From assembly GCA_019261985.1 (NCBI GenBank), contig JAFAQY010000092.1, forward strand, positions 1-45,703: DNA of 45,703 nt. The letters run 5' to 3'. Positions within the stretch are counted from its first letter, which is position 1. Each line of letters begins with the position of its first letter. This document shows, in pieces, positions 18,693 through 33,500 of this stretch. The position numbers and the translations under genes were made by a program. The stretch is from Bryobacterales bacterium. GTDB lineage: Bacteria > Acidobacteriota > Terriglobia > Bryobacterales > Bryobacteraceae. A model generated the notes under the pieces. It saw nothing but the letters and a program-made list of their open reading frames with translations. It was not told where the DNA came from and did no database searches.

Positions 18693-18914
18693 GCGTTCGT
18701 GTACAGCATTCGCGCAACCAATTCGCGAATTGCGTATTTAGAGGAGCTTACAACGGAACCGGCAGGCCAAAATGGAACGGGGTTTCAAATCGGAATCGAG
18801 TGAAGTCCGATTTGGTCCCTGTAAATCGTATCGGCGATAGGGCGCGGCTTTTGAATCTTTACGTTCCAGCTTCCCGCCAGAACGGTCGCTCATTTGCAAT
18901 GCCTCATTGCGGCG
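18693..18914. promoter_or_regulatory. Divergent control region of the two flagellar operons
   Basis: This 222-bp gap separates fliK (minus) and flgF (plus) and must hold both operon promoters. It contains a perfect 12-bp palindrome AATTCGCGAATT (18720-18731), a plausible regulator site, about 30 bp in front of fliK. A TGGAAC...TTTCA stretch near 18775 only partly resembles a sigma54 site, and no good sigma28 box is visible. Confidence 0.5.
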
Positions 18915-19622
18915 ATGGACCCACTGTTGATCTCAGCAGCGAGCGGAATGAAAGCGCGCATGGAATCTCTCGATGTGCTCGCAAATAACCTCGCGAACAC
19001 AGGCACCTCAGGGTTTAAGTCCGACCGCGAATTCTATGGACTTTATAGCGAGCAACTGCCTGTCCTTGAAAAGCAGTGGACGGACTTTTCGCAGGGCGCG
19101 CTGGTCCCCACTGGCGATCCACTGGACCTCGGCCTTTCCGGAAAAGGCTTTTTTGCGCTCAACTCTTCGGCCGGCACGGTGTACACACGCAATGGACAGT
19201 TTCAGATTTCAAAAGCGAATCAGTTGCAAACGTCGGACGGCTACACGCTACGGAACTCACGCGATAATGGCAACCCGATCACCATAGATCCGGCCAAGCC
19301 CATCGAGGTAAGTAAGTCGGGCCTAATCAGCCAGGGAGGGCAGGAGGTTGCGCAAATCGAAATCGCCGGAATAGACTCGCCCTCGCAACTCCTGAGCAAA
19401 TTGGGTAATAGCTACTTCGCCGTGACACAAGGCGCGAAGACGCAGGCCGCGGCTGATACCGAGGTGCGACAGGGCACGCTGGAACAATCCAACGTCCCCG
19501 TCGCCGATTCGGCGGTGCGACTGGTGAGCGTTATGCGCCAGTTTGAAATGTTGCAAAAGGCGCTAACCGTCGGCGCGGATATGAATAAGCAGGCGATCGA
19601 AGAGGTCGCAAAAGTCTCTTGA
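18915..19622 (+). CDS. flgF: Flagellar proximal rod protein FlgF
   Basis: A 235-residue FlgF/FlgG-family rod protein. It has the N-terminal motif ESLDVLANNLANTGTSGFKSDREF, the central FlgE/F/G segment (DPLDLGLSGKGFFALN, VYTRNGQFQ), and the C-terminal EQSNVPVADSAVRLVSVMRQFEMLQKAL. The ATG at 18915 (MDPLLISAASGMKARMES) gives the family N-terminus; an ATG 21 bp upstream adds unrelated residues. It starts the plus-strand rod/ring operon, and flgG follows after 37 bp. FlgF is favoured over a second FlgG because it precedes a clear FlgG. Confidence 0.92.
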   Translation: MDPLLISAASGMKARMESLDVLANNLANTGTSGFKSDREFYGLYSEQLPVLEKQWTDFSQGALVPTGDPLDLGLSGKGFFALNSSAGTVYTRNGQFQISKANQLQTSDGYTLRNSRDNGNPITIDPAKPIEVSKSGLISQGGQEVAQIEIAGIDSPSQLLSKLGNSYFAVTQGAKTQAAADTEVRQGTLEQSNVPVADSAVRLVSVMRQFEMLQKALTVGADMNKQAIEEVAKVS

Positions 19623-19659
19623 AGACATCGCCTATAACTGGGAACCCGAGGAGAGGAAA

Positions 19660-20451
19660 GTGATCAGAGCACTCTACAGCGCTGGCAGCGGAATGAATGC
19701 GCAGCAAATGAGTATCGATAATATCGCCAATAACCTGGCTAATGCCAACACTGCCGGGTTCAAAGCCCGGCGAACTCAGTTTCAGGATTTGCTCTATCAA
19801 AGCTTTTTGCAGCCCGGCGCAGCGGCAGGATCGCAAACCACGATTCCTAGCGGCTTGCAACTAGGGCTGGGGTCGCGCCCTTCCGCCAACACTGTCATCT
19901 TTTCGCAAGGCAACTTTACGGAGACCGACAATCCTCTCGATCTGGTCATTCAGGGCAAAGGGTTCTTTCAAATCCGCCGGCCTGACGGATCGGTTGCCTA
20001 TACACGGGCAGGTAATTTTCAGCTCGATAAAGACGGCAATATCGTCACCGGAAACGGAGACCCGATCGAGCCTCAGATAACCATTCCGCAGCAAGCGCAA
20101 TCGATAACGATCGCTTCCGACGGAACCGTCAGCTATACCCAGCCGGGACAGACCGCAACCCAAGTGGCGGGTCAGATTCAGCTCGCGAATTTCACGAACC
20201 CCGGCGGCCTTAATAGCATCGGCAGCGGGCTATTCCTGCCAACGGATGCGAGCGGCGATCCTACCGTCGGTAATCCGGGAGGTCAAGAGGGCCTGGGCAC
20301 CCTCCAACAGGGATACGTTGAAGCATCCAATGTCAGCGTGGTCGAGGAATTCATTAATATGATCACCAGTCAGCGCGCCTACGAGGCTAACAGCAAGGTC
20401 GTCAAGGCCGCCGATGATATGTATTCGCAAGTGAACAACGTCACGCGATAA
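19660..20451 (+). CDS. flgG: Flagellar distal rod protein FlgG
   Basis: The 263-residue FlgG matches the family closely: MIRALYSAGSGMNAQQMSID, NNLANANTAGFKARR, the FlgG-specific GLGSRPSANTVIFSQGNFTETDNPLDLVIQGKGFF and the C-terminal VVEEFINMITSQRAYEANSKVVKAAD. It builds the drive-shaft distal rod crossing the P and L rings. It starts with GTG at 19660 preceded by GAGGAGAGG. flgA follows after 14 bp. Confidence 0.97.
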   Translation: MIRALYSAGSGMNAQQMSIDNIANNLANANTAGFKARRTQFQDLLYQSFLQPGAAAGSQTTIPSGLQLGLGSRPSANTVIFSQGNFTETDNPLDLVIQGKGFFQIRRPDGSVAYTRAGNFQLDKDGNIVTGNGDPIEPQITIPQQAQSITIASDGTVSYTQPGQTATQVAGQIQLANFTNPGGLNSIGSGLFLPTDASGDPTVGNPGGQEGLGTLQQGYVEASNVSVVEEFINMITSQRAYEANSKVVKAADDMYSQVNNVTR

Positions 20452-20465
20452 GGAGACAGAGTCCC

Positions 20466-20774
20466 TTGAAGACTGCGGCGTATTTGCTGTTCGCTATACA
20501 GTTGTTCGGTGCGGAGACGGGAGATCCGCGGGAGCTAAAATCCGCTGAGCCGCCGAGAAGCGGCGCGCGCTTTTCCAAACTGCCTCCGCCGGACGTCCAG
20601 CGCGGGGACAAAGTTGCCGTGATTGTCGTATCCGGCGCGATCCAGCTTAAATTCGATGCGGAGACCGAATCGGCCGGCCACATCGGTGAAACCGTAATCG
20701 TAAAAAATCCTGAGAACGGCCGTCGCTTTGTTGCGCGGGTTGAGGAGAAAGGAAAAGTGGTAGTTAAAAAGTAA
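20466..20774 (+). CDS. flgA: Minimal FlgA, P-ring assembly chaperone domain
   Basis: FlgA is the periplasmic chaperone for P-ring (FlgI) assembly. This 102-residue protein has an N-terminal hydrophobic segment (TAAYLLFAIQLFGA) that could act as a signal peptide. It otherwise carries only the C-terminal FlgA half: VQRGDKVAVIVVSGAIQLKFDAETESAG, then GETVIVKNPENGRRFVARVEEKGKVVV. The N-terminal SAF-like region of the usual 220-residue protein is missing. It uses a TTG start with AAGGAGA upstream, and its TAA shares one base with the flgH ATG. Confidence 0.85.
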   Translation: MKTAAYLLFAIQLFGAETGDPRELKSAEPPRSGARFSKLPPPDVQRGDKVAVIVVSGAIQLKFDAETESAGHIGETVIVKNPENGRRFVARVEEKGKVVVKK

Positions 20775-21370
20775 TGTTCAGGATCTTCGTTGCCATCGCA
20801 TTTTCAGCGGCATTAATGGCCCAACCTTCACCGGGTTCTTTATATGTGCCAGGAGGACGATTCGCCGCATCCACTCGCGATCTTCGCGCTTCCGAAGTTG
20901 GCGATATCGTTACGATTCTGGTAAAGGATAATGCTTCGGCGGTAGCAACCGGGGCGACGAATTCGTCGCGGAAATCATCTGCAAATTCCAACATCGCCGC
21001 TCTTGCAGGCCCTACAGGAGCGCGTTTAGCTAACCTTTTGGGCGTTACCGGCGCACAACAATTGCAGGGCCAGGGACAGACCTCCCGAAATATGACCCTC
21101 ACAACCAACATATCCGCGCGTGTGACGGAAGTCACTGCAAACGGTACTCTGATGGTCGAAGGTTTGAAAGATGTCAGCGTTAACTCGGAAAAGCAGAGCA
21201 TCGTAGTTCGCGGCGCGGTGCGGCCCGCCGATTTGACCACCGCCAACACCGTCGCCTCAGACCAGGTCGCGAACCTCAGTATCCAAATAAATGGAAAGGG
21301 TGTCGTCGGAGATGCGATCCGAAGGCCTCATTTTCTGTACCGTTTGATCCTAGGACTGTTGCCGTTCTAA
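20774..21370 (+). CDS. flgH: Flagellar L-ring protein FlgH
   Basis: FlgH forms the outer-membrane bushing of the flagellum. The 198-residue protein has a hydrophobic N-terminal signal (FRIFVAIAFSAALMA), then the conserved SLY, DLRASEVGDIVTILVKDNASA, LTTNISARVTEVTANGTLMVEG and VVRGAVRPADLTTANTVASDQVAN segments. It contains no cysteine at all, so the lipobox normally found in FlgH is absent and it would be secreted unlipidated. It overlaps flgA by one base. flgI starts 8 bp later. Confidence 0.95.
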   Translation: MFRIFVAIAFSAALMAQPSPGSLYVPGGRFAASTRDLRASEVGDIVTILVKDNASAVATGATNSSRKSSANSNIAALAGPTGARLANLLGVTGAQQLQGQGQTSRNMTLTTNISARVTEVTANGTLMVEGLKDVSVNSEKQSIVVRGAVRPADLTTANTVASDQVANLSIQINGKGVVGDAIRRPHFLYRLILGLLPF

Positions 21371-21378
21371 TCGAGCTT

Positions 21379-22467
21379 ATGTTGCCCGCGATTCTAATAT
21401 TGCTTATGGCTGCCCCGGTTTTCGGAGCAGGAACGCGCTTGAAAGAACTCGCTTCACTCGAGGGCGTCCGTGATAACCAGCTTATGGGGTACGGCCTGGT
21501 GGTCGGTTTGAACGGAACCGGTGATAAGCGGCAAACAGTATTTTCCGCGCAGGCGTTGTCAAACATTCTCCAACGGATGGGAATCAGCGTGAATCCCACG
21601 GCTATCCTGGTGCGAAATATGGCTGCCGTGATGGTCACCGCGACCCTACCTCCCTTTGCTCAGCCCGGAACCAAAATCGATATCACAGCCGCCGCGATCG
21701 GTGATTCAACCAATCTGCAGGGCGGCATGCTGCTGCTGACACCTCTAAACGGAGCCGACGGTAAAGTTTATGCCGCGGCGCAGGGAAACATTCTTACAGG
21801 CGGGTTCTCCGCCGGAGGCCGTGGAAATTCGCAGACTGTGAACCACCCGACAGTCGGGCGCATTCCATCGGGGGCCATCGTCGAGCAGGCGCCCCCGTCG
21901 GTTGCGCCGGGATCCAAATTAAAGTTGCAGCTTCATCAAAGCGATTTCACAACAGCCGCCAAAGTGGTCTCTGCCCTCAATAACCACTTCGGCGGGGAAA
22001 CCCCGGTCGCCCGAGCACTCAGTTCGGCGGTGGTCGCTATCGATCTTCCCGAGCAATGGGCTTCCCGCCCCGTGGAGTTTGTTGCCGAAATGGAAAATCT
22101 GACCGTCGAAGCCGATCGGAAAGAGCGGATCGTCATCAACGAGAAAACGGGGACGATCGTCCTTGGCAAAGACGTAAAAATCTCGCCCGTCGCAATCATC
22201 CATGGAGCGCTGAATGTAGAAGTTCGAACCGCCTTCGACGTCTCGCAGCCGGAGCCCCTGTCAGCCGGCAAGACCGCTGTGATCCCGCAAACCAACATCG
22301 GAGCCAGTGAGGAGAAAGCCAAGCATCTGGTTCTCGATAAAGGAGCAACTATCGAGCAACTGGTGCGCGCGCTTCAGGCGATCGGGTCGACACCCCGAGA
22401 CGTAATCGCCGTACTTGAAAACATGAAATCGGCGGGCGCCCTCGATGCCGACATCGAGGTCATCTGA
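21379..22467 (+). CDS. flgI: Flagellar P-ring protein FlgI
   Basis: The 362-residue FlgI has a signal peptide (LPAILILLMAAPVFGA) and the canonical N-terminus RLKELASLEGVRDNQLMGYGLVVGLNGTGD. It also has IDITAAAIGDSTNLQGGMLLLTPLNGADG and the C-terminal ASLEQLV-type segment (KGATIEQLVRALQAIGSTPRDVIAVLENMKSAGAL). It forms the ring around the rod in the peptidoglycan layer with the help of FlgA. Its TGA shares one base with the flgJ ATG. Confidence 0.97.
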   Translation: MLPAILILLMAAPVFGAGTRLKELASLEGVRDNQLMGYGLVVGLNGTGDKRQTVFSAQALSNILQRMGISVNPTAILVRNMAAVMVTATLPPFAQPGTKIDITAAAIGDSTNLQGGMLLLTPLNGADGKVYAAAQGNILTGGFSAGGRGNSQTVNHPTVGRIPSGAIVEQAPPSVAPGSKLKLQLHQSDFTTAAKVVSALNNHFGGETPVARALSSAVVAIDLPEQWASRPVEFVAEMENLTVEADRKERIVINEKTGTIVLGKDVKISPVAIIHGALNVEVRTAFDVSQPEPLSAGKTAVIPQTNIGASEEKAKHLVLDKGATIEQLVRALQAIGSTPRDVIAVLENMKSAGALDADIEVI

Positions 22468-22751
22468 TGGCTGAAATCACCTCTGCGCCGGCAGGTGCGG
22501 CAGCGCTAGGTACGCCAAACGCTCCCAAGCCCAAAAATGCAAGGGAAGCAGCCCAGCAATTCGAGGGTTTATTGATTGCGCAGATGCTTCGGTCCGCCCG
22601 CGACGCTTCACAGGCAGAAGGTGAGGACGCAACGACCGAAACGATGTTCGATGTGGCCGGTCAACAATTCGCTCAGATGCTCGCCAACCATGGAGGCCTC
22701 GGATTGGCGAAGCTAATCTCGAAGGGTTTAGATGGCTCTATGGCAAGTTGA
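22467..22751 (+). CDS. flgJ: FlgJ-type rod-binding domain protein
   Basis: The 94-residue protein is only the rod-capping half of FlgJ (KPKNAREAAQQFEGLLIAQMLRSAR, then MFDVAGQQFAQMLANHGGLGLAKLI). The C-terminal peptidoglycan hydrolase domain of enterobacterial FlgJ is missing, as in many non-enteric bacteria, so another muramidase must open the wall for rod growth. It closes the plus-strand operon. Its 3' end overlaps that of the convergent Gly-rich gene by 14 bp. Confidence 0.92.
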   Translation: MAEITSAPAGAAALGTPNAPKPKNAREAAQQFEGLLIAQMLRSARDASQAEGEDATTETMFDVAGQQFAQMLANHGGLGLAKLISKGLDGSMAS

Positions 22752-23532
22752 ATTCAACTCGCCGGTCCCGGTTGATCTGCTCGGTGAACCTGCGATCTAC
22801 GCTCGAAAGCGGCGCCTGCATTTCTTCATGCTCGCGCGAAGTCCAGTAGATCTGGCCGTTTTCGATTCGATACGAGATCGCTGCCCGGATCGTATGGTCA
22901 GTGAACGCAAGCAGGTAAAAATCGGGCGACCTGTAGAACGAAGAAGATTGAGGCGCCGGACCCGTCCCGATGCTCTGGTTTACTACTACGGGTGGCTGCG
23001 AAGGCGCCGGAGCGTAACCCGCCGACACGTAGCCATAATTAGGATCGCTCGGATCGGACCAACCCGGACCCGTCGCAAAACCCGGACCGGCGACAAAACC
23101 CGGAGCTATCGCTGGACCCCAGCCGCAACCCCAGAAAGGATCGCACGGAAACCATGGACTCGGCCAGCCCCAGCCCCAACCGAAGAACGGAAGGCCAACA
23201 AAGCCGAACCCAGAACGGAACCCGCGCCCGAAGAATGCGCCGCCGCGGAAACCGCCGCCGATAAAACCGCCTCGGAAACCACTGCCGAAGCCACCGCCAC
23301 GGAAACCGCCGACGGCAACGCCCCCGCCGCGGAAACCGCCACCGCCAACTGCCCCGCCGCGGTAACCACCGGCAAAGCCGCCACCCGAAATCCGGGCTCC
23401 GCCACCGCCGAACCCGCCACCCATATGGCCGCCGCCTCCACCGCCGGCGTGTCCACCACCGCCGCCTCCGCCACGGGCAAATGTCAGCATCGAAACCGAT
23501 GAAACCAGAAGAATAAGCCGTAGGAGTCTCAT
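22738..23532 (-). CDS. Glycine-rich secreted protein of unknown function
   Basis: A 264-residue protein with a signal peptide (MRLLRLILLVSSVSMLTFA) and a Gly/Phe/Arg-rich region (about 20-125) built from GGGFRGG-type units. A Trp/Pro/Phe-rich stretch with two cysteines follows (FPCDPFWGCGWG). The compact C-terminal segment of about 75 residues (YLLAFTDHTIRAAISYRIEN, then IYWTSREHEEMQAPLSSVDRRF) could be a small folded domain. Similar Gly-rich envelope proteins are common in Acidobacteriota, but I do not know a function. The opposite frame also has a long ORF, which is a shadow caused by the GC-rich repeats. Confidence 0.75.
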   Translation of the reverse strand: MRLLRLILLVSSVSMLTFARGGGGGGGHAGGGGGGHMGGGFGGGGARISGGGFAGGYRGGAVGGGGFRGGGVAVGGFRGGGFGSGFRGGFIGGGFRGGAFFGRGFRSGFGFVGLPFFGWGWGWPSPWFPCDPFWGCGWGPAIAPGFVAGPGFATGPGWSDPSDPNYGYVSAGYAPAPSQPPVVVNQSIGTGPAPQSSSFYRSPDFYLLAFTDHTIRAAISYRIENGQIYWTSREHEEMQAPLSSVDRRFTEQINRDRRVEFNLP

Positions 23533-23587
23533 AAACTGTTGCCCCCTAACTTCATTTTACGCCTCCAACCTGAAAACCGGTTCAAAT

Positions 23588-24844
23588 TTAATCTCTTGGA
23601 TCGCTTATCCGGCCCTTCGCCGCTGACGCCGCGACTGTTAGCGTGGACGCCAGATAATGGCGGGCTTTCGGATGGCCATTCCGGCCGGGGAAGTTGCGGG
23701 CCTGCGTTGAGATCATGACCTCGTCTTCGGCGAGCGCGCCCATATTGAACGCTTGATTCGACCCGGCGCTCGGAGGAAAGATATTCGCGCCCGCGTTGAA
23801 CAAGGTCTCGATTAAGCCTTCCCGTAGGGCGGCGCGGTAAATGCCGCGGCTCGCCGGAACCACTTGCAACCGAACGCCTTTTGCGACCTGCCGATGGCTG
23901 AAAAATGCCGCGAGCTGCCGGATGTCTTCCAGACGTCCGCCGGTGCTTCCGCCGACTTCGGCAATATCGATCGGAATTCCGATGGCTTCCCTGACTGGAC
24001 GAACGTTTCCGACCGTTGGCGGGCATGCGATCTGCGGGTCGATTCTGCTGACGTCAATTTCGCGCGTCTCGGAATACGCGCACTCGGGATCGTTGGTGAA
24101 AATTTCAAAATCCGTGCCGTTCAGCGTGGTTTTCGCGAAGGCCACCGTTGCTTCGTCCGGACTAATGAACCCGCATTTCCCGCCGACGTCGATCGATTGA
24201 AGTGGAAATAAAAGCCGGTCTTCGATCGGCAGCGATTCTATATAAGGACCGGCGTATTCGATTGCTCTGTAAATCGCGCCATCTTCGCCGAGACTTCCGA
24301 CCAGGAATTGAGAAACGTCGCGCGCCGTAACGCCCGGCCGGTGCTCCCCGTGGAACACTACTTTGATCGTCTCGGGAACACGGAACCAGCCGAGGCCGCG
24401 CTGGAACCCCAGGGCGGCCATCGAGTTATTGCCGACGCCGGTCGCGAACGCCCCGAGCGCGCCATAGACCGGCGTGTGTGAATCGCAACCGATAATCACC
24501 CGGCCAGGCGCCCACAGGCCGGCTTCCATGATCACGTGATGGACACTGCCGCACCCGGAATCGAAAACATTCTGAATGCCGTGCTTAGCCGCGAACTCCC
24601 GCACCGCGGCCAAAGCTTCGGCCGCCTGCTGCGTGGCGGGAGCGAAGTTGTGATCGAACACGAACGCGATGCGCGACGGGTCGGCGATGGTGCCCGATTC
24701 CATTTCGTTTTCGAAGACCTTCATCACGAAATTGGCGCTGAGGTCGTGCATAACCATCAGATCCACCTTGGCGATGACGACATCGCCGGGCACGACTTCT
24801 TTTTTGCCGCTCGCCTTGGCGAGGATTTTTTCGACCATGTTCAT
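23588..24844 (-). CDS. LeuC/homoaconitase-like large subunit lacking Fe-S cysteines
   Basis: The 418-residue protein aligns along its length with the large subunits of isopropylmalate/homoaconitate dehydratases. It has IGCDSHTPVYGALGAFATGVG (D121-S122-H123), TIKVVFHGEHRPGVTARDV, VPASRGIYRAAL (R333) and the ISTQARNFPGRNGHPKARHYLAS tail. In the family the 4Fe-4S cluster is held by a Cys in GSCTN and two in GCGPC. Here these read GGSTGG (Ser300) and PSAGSN (Ala360 and Asn363), so all three ligands are gone while the acid/base residues remain. I infer a cluster-free isomerase or dehydratase. The ATG at 24844 overlaps the upstream M24-like gene as ATGA, with GAGGAGCG as ribosome site; a second ATG lies 6 bp downstream. 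Substrate unknown. Confidence 0.85.
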   Translation of the reverse strand: MNMVEKILAKASGKKEVVPGDVVIAKVDLMVMHDLSANFVMKVFENEMESGTIADPSRIAFVFDHNFAPATQQAAEALAAVREFAAKHGIQNVFDSGCGSVHHVIMEAGLWAPGRVIIGCDSHTPVYGALGAFATGVGNNSMAALGFQRGLGWFRVPETIKVVFHGEHRPGVTARDVSQFLVGSLGEDGAIYRAIEYAGPYIESLPIEDRLLFPLQSIDVGGKCGFISPDEATVAFAKTTLNGTDFEIFTNDPECAYSETREIDVSRIDPQIACPPTVGNVRPVREAIGIPIDIAEVGGSTGGRLEDIRQLAAFFSHRQVAKGVRLQVVPASRGIYRAALREGLIETLFNAGANIFPPSAGSNQAFNMGALAEDEVMISTQARNFPGRNGHPKARHYLASTLTVAASAAKGRISDPRD

Positions 24845-25563
24845 GGCGCGCTCCTCGCGTTGATTTTGGCCCAATGGCCCCGATATTCCAGCGCGACACT
24901 CACCGAAAATCCCGGTTGCAGCATTTGTCCCTTCGCGGGAACCGGCACTGTGTCGCCATTCGTGACCAGTATTACCAGATCCTCCGCGCCTGCCCGTCGC
25001 AGCCTGCGCTCCAATCGTCCGACGAATTCATAGTCGGTGAGGCCGGCGCCGGAGCCCAGTTCTGTTTCCAAGCCTTTGCATGCCATTTGCGCCGCGCGGC
25101 GCTGCATCGCGCGTTCCCAATCATCGGTCTCATGCGGAATCTCCTGAATCGCCAATTTGCCGCGAAGCGCCAAATGCAAATCGTAAGGAAGTCCCCCCGG
25201 ATCGATCATTCCGACCCGCTCCCACGATCTTTGGGCGGAAATTTCGAGCAGGCGCTGCGCGAGATTAGGACTGTGCAGAATCTCTTCGAGAATTGTCACG
25301 GACCTTATCCACGGATAAACCCGCGGAGACAGGCCGCATAACAGCAAAGGCTTGTCCGCGCGCGGCACAATCAGGAAAGCGCGATTGAAATATGGCATGA
25401 AATTGGAATAAAAGCGCGCGTGACCTGTCCGGCCCAGGTCGCTGTAGACCACCAGCGCATGCAAATCGCGCTCCGCGAGCCGGTTTCTGGCCGCGTCTAG
25501 CCGCGCTTCGAAGACATTCAGAGGCAGTTCTGTTTTATCCCAAGCAATCAAGCCGCGCTTCAT
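24841..25563 (-). CDS. Truncated M24 (creatinase/aminopeptidase-like) N-terminal domain protein
   Basis: A 240-residue protein with the N-terminal creatinase/prolidase-type domain (FEARLDAARNRLAERDLHALVVYSDLGRTGHARFYSNFMPYFNRAFLIVP). It continues into the first helices of the M24 pita-bread fold (MACKGLETELGSGAGLTDYEFVGRLERRLRRAG) and stops after VSVALEYRGHWAKI. The rest of the catalytic fold, including all later metal-ligand positions, is missing. Its start and stop both overlap neighbours by 4 bp (ATGA), so the truncation looks established rather than a recent break. I infer a partner or regulatory subunit for the full-length M24 protein encoded just upstream. Confidence 0.8.
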   Translation of the reverse strand: MKRGLIAWDKTELPLNVFEARLDAARNRLAERDLHALVVYSDLGRTGHARFYSNFMPYFNRAFLIVPRADKPLLLCGLSPRVYPWIRSVTILEEILHSPNLAQRLLEISAQRSWERVGMIDPGGLPYDLHLALRGKLAIQEIPHETDDWERAMQRRAAQMACKGLETELGSGAGLTDYEFVGRLERRLRRAGAEDLVILVTNGDTVPVPAKGQMLQPGFSVSVALEYRGHWAKINARSAP

Positions 25564-26636
25564 TTTTGAAACAGTTTCCTTCCGGCTTGGTTCAGCGAAG
25601 TACAGCCGTCAGCCGTTACCAGCAATGTATCTCCGAAGACCATATAGCCGGAGAGCGGCAAATACGTGTTCGGATGAGCGATGACGACCATGCCTTCCTT
25701 TACCCTGTAATGGACGTCTTCGAGCACGTAAGGATTTTCATCCGGGTGCAGGCCGAGATTGTGGCCACGCACGCGGGTGTATTTGGGACCGGTGTATCCG
25801 CCATAGCCGTACTGGCGAAAAACATCGTTTTGAACACGGGCAATATCCGCGACATCTACGCCGGGTTTCAGCAGATTCTCGGCGGCTTGTCGCGCCTCGA
25901 AGAAAATCTCGAACGCACGGCGCTGCTCGGGATTCGGTTCGCCGAGGATCAGCGTTCTGCAGATTTGCGCGTAGTAGCCGTTCACCGCGGGTGTCAGCTC
26001 GGTGGTCACCTGATCGCCTGGTTGGAACCGGCGTTCCGTGGGCGGCTTCATGCCGGTGACTTCGGTCCCGCCGGAAGCGATCAGCATAAAATTATCCTCT
26101 GCGCCGTTGCATTTGAGAAAACCTTCGACCTCGGCGACTAACTCGTATTCGGCCATGCCGGGCTCGATGATTTGCGCGAAGTAGTGGTAGCCGCGATCGG
26201 CAAGCGCGGCGGCGCGGCGGAGGCAATCGAGTTCTTCGGCGGATTTCACCCGGCGCAGTTCTTCCACCTCCGCGGTTGCGGAAACGGGATCGATTCCCAG
26301 GGCTTCGACGTGACGGGTTTCCATGAGCTCAAGTCCCGCGATGGCGGCGTTGGGGGTTGAGACAGGTTGAAGCTTCAGGGAGACCTTGAAGGCAGGGAAC
26401 AAATCGATATCCCACGGGTCCGAGATAGTCACCTCGATTTCGCCCGATCGATTAAGCGACGCGATGGCCCAAGGACCAGAGAAGTTCACGTTCAACAGAT
26501 AGCGGAAGAAGTCCTTGCGCCAGGAGTGGCCATAGAACAGCAATTGATCCCAGCCATGCTCGGACATTAAGGCCATGAGTTGGGCCAGGCGCTCGGTGGT
26601 GGGGGTGACGGCGGGTTGGGATAGATGGGCCGGCAC
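25560..26636 (-). CDS. M24-family creatinase-like protein without metal ligands
   Basis: About 358 residues: an N-terminal creatinase-type domain (LMSEHGWDQLLFYGHSWRKDFFRYL) and a complete M24 pita-bread domain from about residue 125 (EELRRVKSAEELDCLRRAA). The five usual metal ligands are mostly replaced. The two Asp positions are in ELTPAVNGYYAQICRT, and the two Glu positions read EGMVVIAHPNTY and VFGDTLLVT. One His survives (RGHNLGLHPDE). This recalls creatinase, a metal-free amidinohydrolase, but the substrate is not deducible. I prefer the GTG at 26636, sharing one base with the previous stop; an in-frame ATG at 26663 is the alternative. Confidence 0.82.
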   Translation of the reverse strand: MPAHLSQPAVTPTTERLAQLMALMSEHGWDQLLFYGHSWRKDFFRYLLNVNFSGPWAIASLNRSGEIEVTISDPWDIDLFPAFKVSLKLQPVSTPNAAIAGLELMETRHVEALGIDPVSATAEVEELRRVKSAEELDCLRRAAALADRGYHYFAQIIEPGMAEYELVAEVEGFLKCNGAEDNFMLIASGGTEVTGMKPPTERRFQPGDQVTTELTPAVNGYYAQICRTLILGEPNPEQRRAFEIFFEARQAAENLLKPGVDVADIARVQNDVFRQYGYGGYTGPKYTRVRGHNLGLHPDENPYVLEDVHYRVKEGMVVIAHPNTYLPLSGYMVFGDTLLVTADGCTSLNQAGRKLFQK

Positions 26637-27712
26637 TACGGAGAAACGTCCTCCAAAAACCATTCCGTTGGGATCTCTTTGCCTAGCCCTAGCGCCTTGG
26701 CGCGATTCAGAACGGCCGCGCCCACCGACGCGAACTGCGTGCCCGCTCCAGTATTGTTGTTAAACACGGTGATCTGCTCTGGTGAGGTGCGTCCTTCCAC
26801 TTTGCCCGCGACAAGATCCTGAATCTCCTGAATCGAATCCCAGTTCTTAATGCCCTTTTGCGCGATTTCCCATACGTCCGGCGATTGATCCAGACGCGCG
26901 ACATCTTTCGCGTGCACAACGTATAGATCCGCGCGGCGAATGGTTTCATCGTCGATCTCGCGGCGCTTGTTGCTGGAGTCCGAGCCGCCGATCGACGCGA
27001 CATACATTCCCTTCTCGACCCAATGGCCATCGAACACGGCATCCCATGCGGCGGTTGCGCACTGGACGATATCGCTGCCGTCAACGGCAGCTTCCGGCGA
27101 ACTAACGGTTTTGATCTCGCGGCCGAGCTTCGCGCCCATTGTGCCGCAGAACTCGCGGCAGTGCTCTTGATTGGGGCTGAACACCTTTACAAACTCGAAA
27201 GGGAAATGACTGCACAGAAATTCTAGATGCGCGCCGGCTTGCCACCCGCTGCCGAACAGGCCGAGCACTCGCGGCTTCGCGGGCGCGAGATACTTTGCAC
27301 CGACGACGCTCAGCGCCGCGACACGGATCTTTTGAATGACGCCGTCGGGCATGATGGCAACGGGTTCGATCCGTTCAATATCGAATAGGATCACCATTCC
27401 GCAATAGCGCCCGCCCGTCGCGACCGGAAGAATGCGGCGGCGCTTCACGCCCGCCGTGTACGAAAACCCGGCCATATCGGAAGTGATCCGTAGGGCCCAC
27501 ACGCCGCTGCTGACTCCGCTGCCTTCCTGGGTCTTCATGCGGTACTGGAATCCCGGATTCTGCTTCGATTCCACGGGCAGGTAGGTCTGGCTGCGAGGAC
27601 GATTGATGGCCTTTCCTTCCGCCAGCTCGCGGTAGATGCATTCGGTGGCTGCGATGGCGTCTTCGGGAGTGAGGGCGCGCTCCACTTCGTCGTTATTGAG
27701 AAGCAGCGTCAA
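26636..27712 (-). CDS. Ornithine cyclodeaminase / mu-crystallin family dehydrogenase
   Basis: A 358-residue NAD(P)-dependent protein of the ornithine cyclodeaminase family, which includes imino-acid reductases and alanine dehydrogenases. Its Rossmann motif is VLGLFGSGWQAGAHLEFL, followed by the family segments GSDIVQCATAAWDAVFDGHWVEKGMYVASIG and ITVFNNNTGAGTQFASVGAAVLNRAKALGLG. The protein starts with TTG at 27712, overlapping the LeuD-like stop as TTGA. In this operon it would reduce an imine or deaminate an amino-acid-like intermediate. True ornithine cyclodeaminase activity is unlikely to be provable from sequence, so I give no gene symbol. Confidence 0.88.
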   Translation of the reverse strand: MTLLLNNDEVERALTPEDAIAATECIYRELAEGKAINRPRSQTYLPVESKQNPGFQYRMKTQEGSGVSSGVWALRITSDMAGFSYTAGVKRRRILPVATGGRYCGMVILFDIERIEPVAIMPDGVIQKIRVAALSVVGAKYLAPAKPRVLGLFGSGWQAGAHLEFLCSHFPFEFVKVFSPNQEHCREFCGTMGAKLGREIKTVSSPEAAVDGSDIVQCATAAWDAVFDGHWVEKGMYVASIGGSDSSNKRREIDDETIRRADLYVVHAKDVARLDQSPDVWEIAQKGIKNWDSIQEIQDLVAGKVEGRTSPEQITVFNNNTGAGTQFASVGAAVLNRAKALGLGKEIPTEWFLEDVSP

Positions 27713-28227
27713 ACCGGCGCCTCGAAGAATTTCGAATTTGAGTTGAGCAGCGGGATCAAGCCGCCGGCGCGGACCATCTCGAGTAAGAACTGGGGTAAGG
27801 GTTTGCCCTGCAGCGATCTTCCCGACGTCAAGTTTTCAACCAACCCGGTTGCGATATCCACGCGAAGCCGGTCGCCGGTTTCGACCAGATCGTGAACCCC
27901 GGCCGCCTCCAGCAGCGGCAGCCCGATTTCGGCGCCATTGCGATAAAACGTACGCGAGAACATTTCGGCGACGACCACTCCGATGGCGGTGGCTTTCAAA
28001 GCCTTGGCTGCAAGAGCTCGGCCCGAGGAACAGCCGAAGTTTCGCCCCGCGACGAGGATGTCTCCTGGTTGAACTTTTTTCGGGAAGTCGGGGTTGACCG
28101 TCTCGAGCACGAACTTCGCCATCTCATTCGCCGTTTTGAACATGATGTGGGCGGGCGTGATCATATCGGTCGGGATGTTGTGGCCGAATTTCCAGCAGGC
28201 GCCTTCGAAGATCAGCTTGTCTGTCAT
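27709..28227 (-). CDS. LeuD-like small subunit with altered active-site loop
   Basis: The 172-residue protein matches small subunits of isopropylmalate/homoaconitate dehydratases: CWKFGHNIPTDMITPAHIM, FPKKVQPGDILVAGRNFGCSSGR, FSRTFYRNGAEIGLPLLEAAG. In the family the loop reads GCGSSREHA; here it is GCSSGRALA (residues 65-73). The positions equal to the catalytic Ser and substrate Arg are kept (S68, R70), while the second Ser and the Glu-His pair are changed. It should pair with the LeuC-like protein at the other end of the operon. Splitting of the two subunit genes by three others is unusual. It starts 5 bp after the transporter gene. Confidence 0.87.
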   Translation of the reverse strand: MTDKLIFEGACWKFGHNIPTDMITPAHIMFKTANEMAKFVLETVNPDFPKKVQPGDILVAGRNFGCSSGRALAAKALKATAIGVVVAEMFSRTFYRNGAEIGLPLLEAAGVHDLVETGDRLRVDIATGLVENLTSGRSLQGKPLPQFLLEMVRAGGLIPLLNSNSKFFEAPV

Positions 28228-28232
28228 GGCAT

Positions 28233-29465
28233 TTACGCCGCCACTCTCCGGCGGGCGGAAAGCGCCGCTCCGGCGGTTACGGGCGAAGGACGCGTGGCGC
28301 GGGCAGTGAGCAAGATCAGCGCCAACGCGAAAGCCGCGAGCACCAGATCGAGCACGAACGGCGTCGAATAGCTGCGCGTGAGGTCGAACAGATAACCCGC
28401 GAGTACGCCGCCGCTGGCCGTCCCCAGACCGAAGAAGACGTAGAACAGGCCGAGAGCCCTGCCCACTTGATGCGTTCCGAAGTACTCAAAAACGATCGTC
28501 GGCGAAGCATTGAAAATACCCCCGTAGCCCATGCCAAACACGATCGCCAGCACATCGATCAGCCCAGATTGCGCGGGAGTTTCGAGCAGGGCAAGAATAC
28601 CCAAGCCCACACAGGAAATGCTGAAAAGCATGCCCGCGCGCGCCGATAAACGATCCGCCAGAACGCCGCTGATGAGTTTGCCGAGCGCAGCCGCGAGCAG
28701 CGCAATCGTAAAGACGTGGGCGGCGGCCTGCATCGGGATGCCTTCGCCCGTTAAGTACAAGACCAGGTTCTGCTGAATTCCGAGCATCGCGTGAGCGGTG
28801 AAGAACAGGCTCATGCCGAAGATCCAGAACATCGGCATGCGCGCAAGCTCAGCCGCGGAAGGCGCGCGCCCGGCCGCGCTGTGAGCGCCGCGCGCTCCGT
28901 CTTTTACGATCAACAGTGTCATTAGCAAGGGAATCGCGATGCAGGCCGCAAGGAACAGGAATGCGCCCGGCACTCCCCGGCGTGCGATCTGCGCGGCCGT
29001 AATTGTGGGCGCCACGCCGCCAAGCCCGATACCCGCGTTCACGAATCCCACCGCCAATCCTCGGTTCCGGCTAAACCACGGTCCTATGAGAATCGAGTTG
29101 GGCAGAATGGAAACGGCGGAAGCGCCCGCGCCGAGAATGACGCAAAACGCGTAATACTGCGTCCGCGTCGCGGCGAAGGAAAGCATGCCGAGCGCCAGCG
29201 CGACCAGGCACATGCCGCCGAGCAAAACTCTTTTAGGGCGGAAGCGGTCAACCAGCGAGCCAACCAACGGCGAAAGAATGCCGACCAGAAGCAGAACGAT
29301 CGAGCCGCCGGCGGTGACAGTGGCGCGATTCCAATGGAATATCCGCACCAGCGATGGATAGAATTGCGGCAGCGAAAACAGCCCGAAAGAGAACGCGACC
29401 ATCAGGATGACGAACGAGGTCGCGAGAGTCAGCCAGTTTCGGATGCTGAGTGGCGTCGCGGGCAC
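28233..29465 (-). CDS. MFS transporter, OxlT/monocarboxylate-type
   Basis: A 410-residue major facilitator with 12 predicted membrane helices in two halves joined by a basic loop (VKDGARGAHSAAGRAPSAAEL). It has the motif-A-like loop GSLVDRFRPKRVLLGG between helices 2 and 3 and its repeat GVLADRLSARAG in the second half. It resembles organic-acid/oxalate-type MFS carriers. It begins with GTG at 29465, 12 bp after the YD-repeat gene stop, and is followed 5 bp later by the LeuD-like gene. It likely imports or exports the compound handled by the operon. The C-terminus is Arg/Ala-rich and cytoplasmic. Confidence 0.9.
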   Translation of the reverse strand: MPATPLSIRNWLTLATSFVILMVAFSFGLFSLPQFYPSLVRIFHWNRATVTAGGSIVLLLVGILSPLVGSLVDRFRPKRVLLGGMCLVALALGMLSFAATRTQYYAFCVILGAGASAVSILPNSILIGPWFSRNRGLAVGFVNAGIGLGGVAPTITAAQIARRGVPGAFLFLAACIAIPLLMTLLIVKDGARGAHSAAGRAPSAAELARMPMFWIFGMSLFFTAHAMLGIQQNLVLYLTGEGIPMQAAAHVFTIALLAAALGKLISGVLADRLSARAGMLFSISCVGLGILALLETPAQSGLIDVLAIVFGMGYGGIFNASPTIVFEYFGTHQVGRALGLFYVFFGLGTASGGVLAGYLFDLTRSYSTPFVLDLVLAAFALALILLTARATRPSPVTAGAALSARRRVAA

Positions 29466-29477
29466 GAAGAGGGAAGT

Positions 29478-30596
29478 CTAACATACGGCAGGCGCGTTGA
29501 GATCGAAATAAGAGTTCACCCGGCGCTCGATGGAGTGCACCGTGAAGTCCGCGTCAGGACGATTGCGACCCTCCGAAGTCTTCGAGACCCAGTTGCCTTG
29601 GACGTCGTATTCATAAGTAAAGCGGGCCTCCGACCACCGGCTTCGCTCCGTAGCCGGAGCGGGGGAGAGCTGGCCTTCGTCGTCCATCCCGAACTCGCGA
29701 TCTTGCGCTTCCACAATTTGCCCGATCATATCGCCTCGGTCGTTATAAAACATGCTCATGTGTTCCTCGCTGAGCAGACCCATTTGGTTGCGTGTTTCGA
29801 TTCTGCGGTTGTGCTCATCGTAGCGGTGCGAGCGACGAGCGGCGGCGAACAGATGGCGGACCGCCTCGCGCTGCGCCGCGTTCATTTGAGCCGTTGCCTC
29901 CGGCGGCAACATATCGGCGAACGTTGTCTGCTCTTCTTCCACCAGATTGAGGTTGCCGTCGTAACGGAACTCAACGCGGCTGACCAGATTGCCGGTGGAA
30001 TCGTGGAACAGCAACTCGGCCGGCTGGTCGCGTTCGTTGTAATGGGTCGTGACGAGCGCCGCGTCTGGCGCGGAGTAAAAGGCGTCTGTTCCTTCCACTC
30101 GCCAGGCGTTGGGGCGAACTCCAAGTTGATCAACATGGATGATTTTGCTTTTCCGGCCGTGCTGGTCGTATTCGTAACTTTCAGTGACCCGTTCGCCGGC
30201 CCCGGATCGCATTATCAGTCGCGCGAGCCTGCCAGCCTGATCGTACTCATAAAGCTGCAGATGCACGTCTCCGGATGAGTGCTCGGCGCGGACGATCGTG
30301 AGCAGATCAGCCTGGTTGTATTCATACACTGTTGTGTGTTCCGAGCCGTCCGGATTGAGATGCTTATGCCGGGCAAGAGAGCCGTTGGGGCGGAACTCGA
30401 GCGCGGAGACGTCGTTGCGAGTTTCTGTTTCGCAAGCGTCCGCGCCGCAGCGCGTCATAAACCACGTGCGCTCGATTTTGCAGGTCTTGACGAGGCCGCG
30501 CAGGTTCCAGCGGTTGCGGTCGGTCACGTTTAAAGTATGCACCGGCTTCACCACGTGCTGATGGATGCCGCCGAAAGGGAGATCAGCCTCATTCAA
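29478..30596 (-). CDS. Short YD-repeat (RHS-like) protein
   Basis: A 372-residue protein with about eight YD-type repeats, for example VYEYNQADLLTIV, LYEYDQAGRLARLI, SYEYDQHGRKSKII, HRYDEHNRRIETR and TYEYDVQGNWVSK. RHS/YD proteins form beta-shells around toxins or bind carbohydrate, but this one is far too short for a shell. It has no signal peptide, no RHS core motif and no C-terminal toxin. It starts with TTG, overlapping the dnaE2 stop as TTGA, and is therefore translated from the same message as the polymerase. The link with DNA damage is unexplained. YD architecture is clear; the role is unknown. Confidence 0.8.
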   Translation of the reverse strand: MNEADLPFGGIHQHVVKPVHTLNVTDRNRWNLRGLVKTCKIERTWFMTRCGADACETETRNDVSALEFRPNGSLARHKHLNPDGSEHTTVYEYNQADLLTIVRAEHSSGDVHLQLYEYDQAGRLARLIMRSGAGERVTESYEYDQHGRKSKIIHVDQLGVRPNAWRVEGTDAFYSAPDAALVTTHYNERDQPAELLFHDSTGNLVSRVEFRYDGNLNLVEEEQTTFADMLPPEATAQMNAAQREAVRHLFAAARRSHRYDEHNRRIETRNQMGLLSEEHMSMFYNDRGDMIGQIVEAQDREFGMDDEGQLSPAPATERSRWSEARFTYEYDVQGNWVSKTSEGRNRPDADFTVHSIERRVNSYFDLNAPAVC

Positions 30597-33500
30597 CGAA
30601 AATCGTGCGACGGTGTGCCTGAGGTCGGAAAATCCAGGCGCTCGGCATGGCGCAGCTTTACCGAGACCGCGCCTTGCTGGTTTTGCAGCGTGCCTTCGAT
30701 AAGTAAATACGGCGCGGTTACTAAAACTTCGCGGTGAGCGTCGAACATTTCCGGCTCGACGATCGCGTTAGCGATGCCGGTTTCATCTTCCAGGCTCAGG
30801 AATAAAAAGCCGTTTGCGGTGCCCGGGCGCTGGCGGCAGATTACGCATCCGGCGACGCGCACTGTGCGTCCGTTGCGAATGCGCTTGAGCTTCGAAGCGG
30901 GTAGCGCGCCGCGCTCGGTCATAGCTTCCCGATAGAGACGCATGGGATGTATCCCAATAGTCAGTCCGGTTCCATAGAAATCGGCGCGGATGCGCTCGGG
31001 GGCGGTCATCAACGACAAGGGACCAGGGGCCAAGGACAAGGGGCCGGGGGCCAGGGGCCAGGGGCCAGTGTCCAACGATTCGAAAAGCGGACCAGCCGGC
31101 CTGATCGCATGCTCGGCCTCCCAGAGGGCGTCGCGGCGATGGCCTCCTATGAGAGAATTCAGCGCGCCAACTTCGGCGAGCATGCGCAGTTCGTCTTTAC
31201 GCAAACCCGGGACTCGGCGGATCAGGTCGGCGATGCCGGCGAAGGGGCTTGCGGCCGCGATCGCTTCACCGATTTCTTTACGCAAACCGCGTACATAGTT
31301 GAAGCCGAGGCGAACAACTGGCCCCTGACCCCTGGCCGCTGGCCCCTCGATCGTGCAAACCCATTGCGACCGCTGCACATCCACTGGTAGAAAATGCTGC
31401 CCATGCCGCTGGGCGTCCTTGACCAGTGTTGCCGGATGATAAAAACCCATTGGCTGCTGGTTCAAGATCGATGCGGTGAAGGCGGCCAAATAACGGCATT
31501 TCAGATACGCGCTGGCGTAGGCGATAAGCGCGAAACTGGCGGCGTGCGATTCCGGAAAACCATAAAGCGCGAACGCGGTGATCGATTCCACAATCCGATC
31601 CTGCGTCTCGCCGATAATTCCATTCGCGGTCATGCCCGAGCGCAGCTTGGCTTCGATGTGGCGCATGCGCTGTTCGCTACGCTTGAACCCCATTGCTCGC
31701 CGCAGTTCTTCGGCCTCGCCGCCGGTGAAATTGGCCGCAATCATCGCGATCCTCAGCAACTGCTCTTGAAATAGCGGCACTCCGAGAGTGCGCTTCAGCA
31801 CTGCTTCAAGCGACGGATGCAAACACGCAGCATCTTCATAGCCCTGCCGCCGGCGCAAGTAAGGATGCAGCATCTTGCCCACGATCGGGCCGGGACGGAT
31901 GATCGCCACTTGCACGACTATGTCGTAAAATTTTTTGGGCTTCAGGCGCGGCAGGCAAGACATTTGAGCGCGGCTCTCGACCTGGAACATGCCGATTGTG
32001 TCGGCTTTTTGTAAGGCTTCGTATACGACGGGATCGTCCTGCGGCAAATGCGCCAAATCCACTTCTTCGCGGTAATGTTTGCGGATCAAATCGAGCGATT
32101 CTTCGAGCACCGCCATCATGCCCAGGCCCAGCAGGTCTACTTTGACGAGGCCCAAATCGGCGCAGTCGTCCTTATCCCACTGAATGACCACGCGGCCAGG
32201 CATGGTGGCAGGCTCCAGCGGTACGATTTGATCGAGCTGCCCCTGGCAAATCACCATGCCGCCGGAATGTTGGCCCAGGTGCCGGGGCAGATTTTGCGCG
32301 CCTACGTAAAGCGACAGGAATTTTTTGATTCGAGGGTCGGTGAGATCGAATCCGGCCTGTTCGAATTGCCGCATGGCCGTATCGCGAGGATCATGCCAGC
32401 CCCAGCGCGATACCAGCGACGATAATTTTGAAAGAGCTTCAGGCGGAAATCCCAACGCTTTGCCGATGTCGCGCGCGGCGGAACGGCCGCGATACGTAAC
32501 GACATTCGCGGTCATGCCCGCGCCGCGCGAGCCGTAGTGCTGATACAAATACTGAATCACGCGGTCGCGCTGATCGCCGGAAGGGAGGTCGAGATCGATG
32601 TCCGGCCATTCGCCGCGTTCTTCTGACAGGAACCGCTCAAACAACAGGTCCATCGCGACGGGGTCTACAGCAGTGATGCCAAGCGAATAACACACCGCGC
32701 TATTCGCCGCCGATCCCCGGCCCTGCACCAGAATGCCGTTTTTACGGCAAAAATCGACGAGATCCCATACGATCAGAAAGTAACCCGCGAGATCGAGCTT
32801 TTCGATGAGGGCGAGCTCGCGCTCGATCTGGTTGCGCGCGCGGTCGTGATAAGGCCGGTAGCGGCGGCGAGCGCCTTCATTCGTTCGTTTGCGCAGGAAC
32901 GAATCGATTGTTTCGCCCGGCGGCACGGGATATTTCGGAAATTCGTAGCCCAGTTTTGCGAGCGTGAAATCGAGCCGCTGCGATAGCTCTCTTGTCTCCG
33001 CGACGGCTTCAGGCACGTCGGAAAACAGTTTCATCATGTCGCAAGGACTTTTCAGATACCGCTCGGCATTGCGCGCGAGCAGGCGGCCCGCTTCCATCAC
33101 CGTCGTTTTGTGGCGTACGGCGGTAAGCGTGTCGAATAATTCGCGCTCTTCAGGCGCGGCGTGGCAGACGCCATTGGTGGCCAATAAAGGCAGCTTCATC
33201 GAACGCGCCAGGTCTATAACGGCTTGGTTGCGCGATTCCTCGTCGCGATGCATATGCCGCTGCAGTTCGGCGTAAACGTTGTTCCGCCCGAACAGCCGGA
33301 TCAATTTTTCGAATCGTGCGCGAGTGGGCGCGCCTTCGCCTGTAAGGCAGACCAGTCCGTCGGCGTAATGGGCAAGCTCACTTTCCGATGCCGCTGGCGA
33401 GCCTTTGGCTGACCGCAACTTCATGGAGGTGATCAGCCGGCACAGGTTCTGATAACCTGTGCGATTCTCGACGAGAAGCGGATAACGGTCGCCGTCCTCG

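Follow-up and report, generated by a model that had tools for sequence, protein, structure and literature searches.

A recurrent gene cassette in Bryobacterales combines a predicted cluster-free LeuCD-type hydro-lyase with two unequal M24 proteins

The 45,703-nucleotide stretch of Bryobacterales bacterium DNA analysed here (GenBank assembly GCA_019261985.1, contig JAFAQY010000092.1; hereafter the window) carries a compact run of six minus-strand genes at 23588-29465 (Table 1). They encode a transporter (MFS), the small and large subunits of a LeuCD-type hydro-lyase (LeuD1 and LeuC1), an OCD-like oxidoreductase, an M24 protein and a shorter M24 paralogue, trM24. An initial annotation made from the sequence alone had described this run, and the open reading frame (ORF) coordinates confirm its extent, strand and junctions: MFS and LeuD1 are separated by a 5-bp gap, LeuD1 and OCD overlap by 4 bp (TTGA), OCD and M24 by 1 bp (TAGTG), and M24-trM24 and trM24-LeuC1 by 4 bp each (ATGA). 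Pfam and NCBIfam models back the MFS, LeuD, OCD, M24 and LeuC family assignments. The only Pfam match of trM24 was to Creatinase_N, at 18.9 bits, under the cut-off of 22.

Table 1. Genes of the six-gene run in the window, in order of transcription.
Gene product	Position	Strand	Start codon and basis of assignment
MFS transporter, monocarboxylate / oxalate-formate-like	28233..29465	(-)	GTG start; PF07690, 128 bits
LeuD1, predicted cluster-free hydro-lyase small subunit	27709..28227	(-)	TIGR02087; Ser-x-Arg kept, substrate loop altered
OCD / mu-crystallin family oxidoreductase (imine reductase / amino-acid dehydrogenase type)	26636..27712	(-)	TTG start; PF02423
M24 protein with rebuilt active site	25560..26636	(-)	GTG start; PF00557, alignment to 1PV9
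trM24, decayed M24 paralogue: creatinase-type N-domain and first part of catalytic domain	24841..25563	(-)	hhalign
LeuC1, homoaconitase/isopropylmalate-dehydratase large subunit lacking the [4Fe-4S] cysteines	23588..24844	(-)	ATG start; NF001614

By profile score, LeuC1 and LeuD1 are members of the isopropylmalate (IPM) dehydratase/homoaconitase family at subfamily level. LeuC1 passed NF001614 (429, cut-off 385) and TIGR01343 (418.7, cut-off 385.7) and fell short of TIGR02086 (396.4, cut-off 410.15), and LeuD1 passed TIGR02087 (152 bits, cut-off 109). An ordinary leucine-pathway LeuCD was ruled out by the equivalog scores (369.8 for LeuC1 with the 3-isopropylmalate dehydratase model TIGR02083, cut-off 610.65) and by the missing cysteines. 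Aligned with 4NQY, an isopropylmalate/citramalate isomerase, GSCTNGR becomes GGSTGGR and PSCSAC becomes PSAGSN, and the three [4Fe-4S] cysteine sites (positions 310, 370 and 373 of a 428-amino-acid (aa) frame) are Ser/His, Ala/Thr and Asn in all 15 LeuC1 homologues. Cysteine occurs in 0/15 LeuC1 sequences at each site and in 11/11 sequences at all three sites of LeuC2, a canonical paralogue described below. The LeuC had been called cluster-free, which holds at the level of sequence, and LeuC1 is highly likely to lack an Fe-S cluster. That it instead binds a metal centre through other residues, either a mononuclear metal or an unusual cluster, appears quite unlikely. Passages of three papers on aconitase X (AcnX) indicate that this superfamily can alter cluster type and ligand positions, and that AcnX was initially described as containing a mononuclear Fe(III) (PMC10040528, PMC5144071, PMC8184944); C130 is Cys in 13/15 LeuC1 rows; however, the sole invariant cysteine, C284 (15/15), is also invariant in the cluster-bearing LeuC2, and C234 (9/15) and C108 (4/15) vary. 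An alternative cysteine set for a LeuC1 cluster was rejected since there is no additional invariant Cys, and an apparent extra Gln in the former cysteine loop proved to be merely a deletion in LeuC2. In a search for cluster-free LeuC elsewhere, all nine LeuC genes on eight plasmid records, chosen among the 30 listed of 542 matching records, kept the three cysteines. A Skermanella mucosa plasmid (L109:1700-5350; L and G numbers are our handles for loci and genomes) has two LeuC genes in tandem with a LeuD and a LeuD-like gene, and both LeuC keep the three cysteines.

The remaining residues expected in the active site are largely retained. D74/H75, H112, D131/S132/H133 and R393/R398 are common to LeuC1 and LeuC2, and the Ser-x-Arg residues S68/R70 to LeuD1 and LeuD2; we take their catalytic roles to be those known from aconitase. 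All 15 LeuC1 sequences have Asp in place of the catalytic Glu in the NMAIE motif. LeuD1 also shows fixed differences from LeuD2: the loop reads GRYLIY in 10/11 LeuD2 sequences and GRYL is found in 0/16 LeuD1 sequences, so that a change of substrate is likely. We calculated ratios of nonsynonymous to synonymous substitution rates (dN/dS) for pairs of relatives, with the window's own genes not among the sequences and with dS often near or above 1, and obtained values of at most 0.21 for each gene measured. For LeuC1 the range was 0.03-0.10 (seven pairs), near the 0.04-0.06 of canonical LeuC2, which indicates a maintained protein and no relic. Judged by these sequence features, LeuC1-LeuD1 can with good confidence be predicted to be catalytically active.

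The M24 protein matches the catalytic-domain family PF00557 at 127.6 bits (cut-off 23). Residues D209, D220, H284, E313 and E327 of the Xaa-Pro dipeptidase 1PV9, which we take to be its metal ligands, correspond to E213, Q224, H292, H321 and G335. This E/Q/H/H/G set is invariant in 18/18 aligned rows, or 19/19 with the 359-aa protein of L024, which entered the ligand check and stood outside the M24 alignment, conservation, partner-divergence and dN/dS rows; the canonical D/D/H/E/E set occurs in none. The protein had been described as metal-free, and four of the five canonical ligands are indeed replaced. One remains, however, and the substituted residues, Glu and His among them, do not vary, so the description stands only in part: E213, H292 and H321 could hold a single metal. 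Such invariance of replacement residues argues against a relic. Creatinase (1CHM) was found at E 7.5e-15, ranked behind prolidases, and M24 scored 44.7 with the ectoine hydrolase model (DoeA/EutD, TIGR02993; cut-off 613), reaching no NCBIfam cut-off.

The shorter protein, trM24, is a paralogue of M24 by hhalign (98.6% probability, 227 columns). The alignment stops at about M24 residue 230, where trM24 ends, which bears out the earlier view of it as a truncated M24. In relatives, trM24 measures 242 aa in three loci and 278-351 aa in 13, with one copy cut by a contig end; the window and L017-L019 lack the end of the protein. Residues R45, Y58, R81 and W85 of trM24 are invariant. Values of dN/dS between relatives were 0.12-0.21, and AlphaFold modelled trM24 with a predicted local distance difference test score (pLDDT) of 82.7, in which the helical and strand elements of the N-domain can be seen together with two long helices and three more strands. 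Under domain boundaries of our own choosing, conservation over 16 loci was 67% in the C-domain of M24 vs 43% in its N-domain, and 49% in the N-domain of trM24 vs 43% in the part of the C-domain kept in the window. In DddP, which has the M24 fold, PMC4108388 describes the N-domain of one chain packing into the pita-bread domain of the other to form an active-site tunnel. The simplest reading of the adjacency and complementary conservation of M24 and trM24 is that they form a heterodimer with one active site, which we infer from single-chain sequences and regard as probable. Both LeuC1-LeuD1 and the M24 pair might instead be pseudoenzymes that serve as regulators or scaffolds, given that cofactor ligands are lost in both and that pseudo-M24 proteins such as Ebp1 exist, as part of PMC11266112 reports. 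The invariance of the substituted M24 residues (among 75 invariant columns across 18 rows), the retained substrate-binding residues of LeuC1 and its LeuC2-like dN/dS make this highly improbable.

To place the run in context, we compared gene order at 19 loci, window included, using start codons chosen by script. The cassette recurs in Bryobacterales and Steroidobacteraceae, and this recurrence across two phyla ruled out chance juxtaposition. M24 and trM24 are adjacent in 18/19 loci, including L024, where they overlap by 4 bp; at the remaining locus, L050, the contig breaks off, and trM24 is terminal on another contig (L099). LeuC1 lies in the same run in 15/19 loci, plus L099 for this split case, and was not seen at L065 (contig end), at L066, the second copy of genome G677, whose contig stops 524 bases behind trM24, or at L044 of Neorhizobium galegae. 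OCD belongs to this run in 13/19 loci, plus L099; it was not seen in L044 or L066, and in G484 it is on another contig. The full order of the window, mostly with overlaps or few-base gaps, is kept in 10/19 loci (the window, L017-L022, L024, L025 and L027), which together with the dN/dS values makes the run more than chance. Scattered homologous neighbourhoods had been named in advance as what would count against a unit; these neighbourhoods mostly hold together, and the genes form a conserved, co-inherited unit. The proposal of a six-gene unit survives as far as co-inheritance goes, but the set was incomplete, as the second, cysteine-bearing pair LeuC2-LeuD2 belongs to it as well, and OCD and MFS are not universal. 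Because the Steroidobacterales genomes G457 and G458 have no OCD match, we take LeuD1, M24, trM24 and LeuC1 as the core. The bracketing of the other genes by LeuC and LeuD, likewise pointed out before, is true of the window but local, since LeuC1 and LeuD1 are adjacent in L049, L070 and L099.

The LeuC2-LeuD2 pair adjoins 12 loci (L017-L020, L022, L026, L028, L029, L049, L066, L070 and L099), in L049 with LeuC2 as a fragment at a contig end. The window's genome encodes its own pair on contig C82 (L023), 79% and 75% identical to the Peristeroidobacter pair. In G1137 the full set stands in a single operon, OCD-LeuD2-LeuC2-LeuC1-LeuD1-trM24-M24-MFS, and G501 has the same set split over two contigs. 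Among 257 Bryobacterales genomes, LeuC2 (E<=1e-170) and M24 (E<=1e-60) were each found in 11, with 10 in common (hypergeometric P 4e-16, relatedness ignored). The unmatched genomes are G008, which is 82% complete and has M24 only, and G674, which has LeuC2 only, plus a contig-end OCD fragment 83% identical. Divergence of the partners is correlated (r 0.91 to 0.995), although shared ancestry alone also yields high values. Taken together, gene order and co-occurrence indicate that the cassette, LeuC2-LeuD2 included, is very probably a conserved functional unit.

The cassette is rare. Apart from the 11/257 Bryobacterales genomes, M24 was found in 1/398 sampled Pseudomonadota (the sample centre itself), in 3/60 genomes of the G457 family and 5/120 of the G455 family (overlapping samples, centres included), and in 2/14 of the Peristeroidobacter genus set. 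LeuC1 was found in 1/396 sampled Acidobacteriota, the window's own genome (E<=1e-130), and trM24 in 7/61 close relatives, own genome included (E <= 1.3e-47), with three more at only ~1e-5. A LeuC1 pattern scan of 84,980 species genomes, which detects close relatives only, returned at least six loci (three acidobacterial, three gammaproteobacterial) at 70-77% identity; this is a lower bound because copies found later were missed. Of 19 records from a phage search with M24, none covered 80% of the query. In a LeuC tree, for which the program warned of long branches, the 15 LeuC1 sequences group as a single clade (100/100) with a long stem, and the gammaproteobacterial L026, L028 and L029 nest beside the window's LeuC1 amid acidobacterial rows (93/88; 95/94 in the five-set). 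This nesting suggests that the cassette passed between lineages by lateral transfer.

The neighbours of related loci vary. L017 has an Amidohydro_2 gene, an NMT1 binding protein, an ABC ATPase and permease and two RraA-like aldolases, with homologues in L020. L028 has an HpcH aldolase, also present at L029, together with DUF6282, LysR, a 302-aa protein of no assigned family, an SDR and a LigM O-demethylase (726, cut-off 580). Single neighbours are a FolD-type gene (L026), UbiD (L066) and a FAD_binding_3 gene (L021). The initial annotation had proposed import of an amino- or amidino-acid and hydrolysis of a C-N bond, which stays conjectural; the LigM, FolD, UbiD, RraA and HpcH neighbours hint instead at the lower pathway of an aromatic or polycarboxylate compound. 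A second M24/trM24 pair in G677 (L066:525-2680) adjoins an outer-membrane protein and an NMT1-type homologue, with a divergent LeuC2-LeuD2-UbiD; a supposed HyuAB fusion beside it turned out to be the outer-membrane beta-barrel protein. Two MmgE/PrpD genes and an ABC transporter stand beside LeuC2-LeuD2 at L098 (G456). The most divergent arrangement, HyuA-HyuB-M24-trM24-PrpD-NMT1 protein-ABC-Amidohydro_2, is found in N. galegae HAMBI 540 (HyuB family assigned from the VafX2 copy), where M24 and trM24 are 44% and 29% identical to the window's and a PrpD-family gene (MmgE_PrpD_N, 37.1 bits, cut-off 32.1) occupies the place of LeuCD1 behind them. A protein family with a GHWEGDTLVVDT-like motif recurs at L065, L066, L070 and L098, and its L066 copy, when tested, had no recognised domain.

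In the breakdown of hydroxyproline, aconitase X, whose members are cis-3-hydroxyproline or phosphomevalonate dehydratases, acts together with an OCD-family reductase, which takes the step after it in the cis-3-hydroxyproline route. The OCD-like protein of the window matches PF02423 (131 bits, cut-off 24) and is 75-82% identical to those of 11 homologous loci and 48% to that of L070. Against equivalog models (BhcD, EutC, LhpI, SbnB and others), its best score was 126 of a required 417, and its sub-cut-off matches include pyrroline-2-carboxylate reductase, alanine dehydrogenase and iminosuccinate reductase models. One could imagine an AcnX-like amino-acid route in which LeuC1-LeuD1 dehydrate a beta-hydroxy amino or cyclic imino acid to an enamine or imine, the OCD-like enzyme reduces it and the M24 pair frees the amino acid from a conjugate. 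OCD is joined to LeuD1 by the 4-bp overlap in most OCD-bearing loci, the sub-cut-off scores point to fitting enzymes, NMT1-type ABC genes lie near some copies, and part of PMC5144071 describes an aconitase-superfamily dehydratase that yields pyrroline-2-carboxylate. Yet two core-bearing genomes have no OCD match, the protein meets no NCBIfam equivalog cut-off and the association with LeuC2-LeuD2 would go unexplained, so we consider such a route rather unlikely.

The methylcitrate cycle offers another parallel, with PrpD, a cluster-free hydro-lyase, and a [4Fe-4S] aconitase acting as a split isomerase alongside the lyase PrpB. We favour, at a probability of roughly 40%, a catabolic cassette that combines a split isomerase (LeuCD1 with the Fe-S-bearing LeuCD2) and an M24 heterodimer. 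Its individual reactions and the direction of transport we infer as follows. An importer, MFS here and ABC beside some copies, would take up the substrate. LeuC1-LeuD1 would perform only the iron-sulfur-independent half reaction, a dehydration or epimerisation by acid-base chemistry, which is the most likely role since the substrate and acid-base residues are kept and the cluster ligands are lost. The [4Fe-4S]-type LeuC2-LeuD2 would then re-add water at the other carbon and complete the isomerisation. M24 would provide the catalytic half-barrel over which the trM24 N-domain closes to form one rebuilt active site, and the pair would cut an intermediate of the pathway at a C-N or C-C bond. In copies that have it, the OCD-like enzyme would act on an imine or amino acid, and where RraA- or HpcH-type aldolases lie nearby they might catalyse a final retro-aldol step. 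The mechanism in exactly this form can only be put forward with reserve; it is suggested mainly by the PrpD-type gene replacing LeuCD1 and the PrpD genes adjoining LeuC2-LeuD2, which are suggestive only. Regarding the substrate, a carboxylic acid, probably an amino- or polycarboxylic one, is a doubtful guess.

The MFS protein is 47-63% identical in 10 homologous loci, and scores best with SfMCT in NCBIfam (121 bits, far under the cut-off of 320); more distant MFS or ABC transporters accompany other cassette copies. As sequence does not reveal its direction, the cassette might conversely make and export a small metabolite, with MFS as the exporter and the LeuCD pairs, which are typical of such routes, acting in 2-oxoacid chain elongation. 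This appears very unlikely: no homocitrate or isopropylmalate synthase and no IPM dehydrogenase is among the annotated neighbours (many neighbours are unannotated). Those recognised include ABC transporters that have NMT1-type binding proteins, as well as amidohydrolases, aldolases, LigM, UbiD and LysR regulators.

Several observations weigh against the catabolic split-isomerase reading. The co-occurrence test ignores shared ancestry, and all 12 genomes belong to three genera. AlphaFold modelled M24 poorly (pLDDT 54.5), so that its rebuilt site is known from sequence only, and the contrast between the trM24 domains (49% vs 43%) is small. G457 and G458 (L028 and L029), which have the core, gave no OCD match at E<=1e-40, G458 being a 3.6 Mb metagenome-assembled genome. 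The M24/trM24 pair also exists without LeuD1 and OCD in front, namely in N. galegae and as the second pair of G677, whose assembly shows only one LeuC1 for its two pairs (L025, L066). Two loci underlie the PrpD analogy, and no NCBIfam model matches the PrpD of N. galegae at 1e-10. With aldolases and transporters varying and OCD missing in two core genomes, the pathway may differ between copies.

The individual folds of the cassette are already known. LeuC1-LeuD1 resemble archaeal-type IPM dehydratase and homoaconitase (LeuC/LeuD, HacA/HacB; 4NQY, 4KP1) in having large and small subunits encoded separately, in similarity over their whole length, in the residues for substrate binding and acid-base chemistry and in the small-subunit Ser-x-Arg, and differ in the three lost cluster cysteines, the Glu-to-Asp change in NMAIE and another small-subunit loop. 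Aconitase X shares the superfamily and an altered cofactor site. It keeps an Fe-S cluster, however, and in the passages of PMC10040528 that equate the two numberings, type I cysteines lie at sites B/C, our sites 2/3, which are Ala/Thr and Asn in 15/15 LeuC1. The AcnX family gave no match in our Pfam scan, which returned only PF00330 for LeuC1 and PF00694 plus a sub-cut-off PF06434 for LeuD1. Like the methylcitrate cycle, the cassette joins a cluster-free hydro-lyase, a [4Fe-4S] hydratase and a lyase or aldolase, with PrpD-family genes in two related loci; its cluster-free partner is LeuCD and not PrpD, and no methylcitrate synthase is among the annotated neighbours. M24-family enzymes (prolidase, creatinase, ectoine hydrolase DoeA and the dimethylsulfoniopropionate lyase DddP) share the pita-bread fold with an N-domain and a catalytic domain, whereas the cassette has an invariant new set in place of four of five ligands and neighbouring genes for two unequal paralogues. 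As supposed at the outset, no pathway with this gene set was described in the open-access literature searched, nor was a cluster-free LeuCD, this M24 pair or their combination.

That the cassette encodes a new catabolic pathway, in which the first aconitase-superfamily hydro-lyase lacking an Fe-S cluster forms a split isomerase with a dedicated cluster-bearing paralogue, and in which an asymmetric M24 heterodimer joins one chain decayed to a substrate-shaping half to another with a new Glu/His/His catalytic or metal site, is a tentative proposal that we find somewhat less probable than its alternatives combined. Catalysis in the aconitase superfamily usually relies on the [4Fe-4S] cluster, and even aconitase X kept another kind of cluster. 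The LeuC1 clade, which has lost all cluster ligands yet is under strong purifying selection, makes it possible to test directly which function the cluster serves, and LeuC1-LeuD1 may be a hydro-lyase robust to oxygen. With its unequal chains, the M24 pair would, if true, be a compact division of labour after duplication. Identification of LeuC2-LeuD2 tells which eight or so proteins should be co-expressed.

Around the run, a promoter and terminator scan gave no sites above the counts in shuffled sequence, and there was no Rfam match at 22000-31000. An RHS-repeat gene on the cassette strand (ORF entry 29478-33703, (-)) shares 4 bp with a DnaE-type polymerase gene and stops 12 bp ahead of the MFS start, so the cassette transcript may start further upstream. 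Directly downstream on the same strand lies a glycine-rich ORF (22738-23532, (-)) with no Pfam match, and past the 3' end of the cassette are flagellar genes at 18894-22467 (+), including FlgI, the other flagellar names being assigned by eye.

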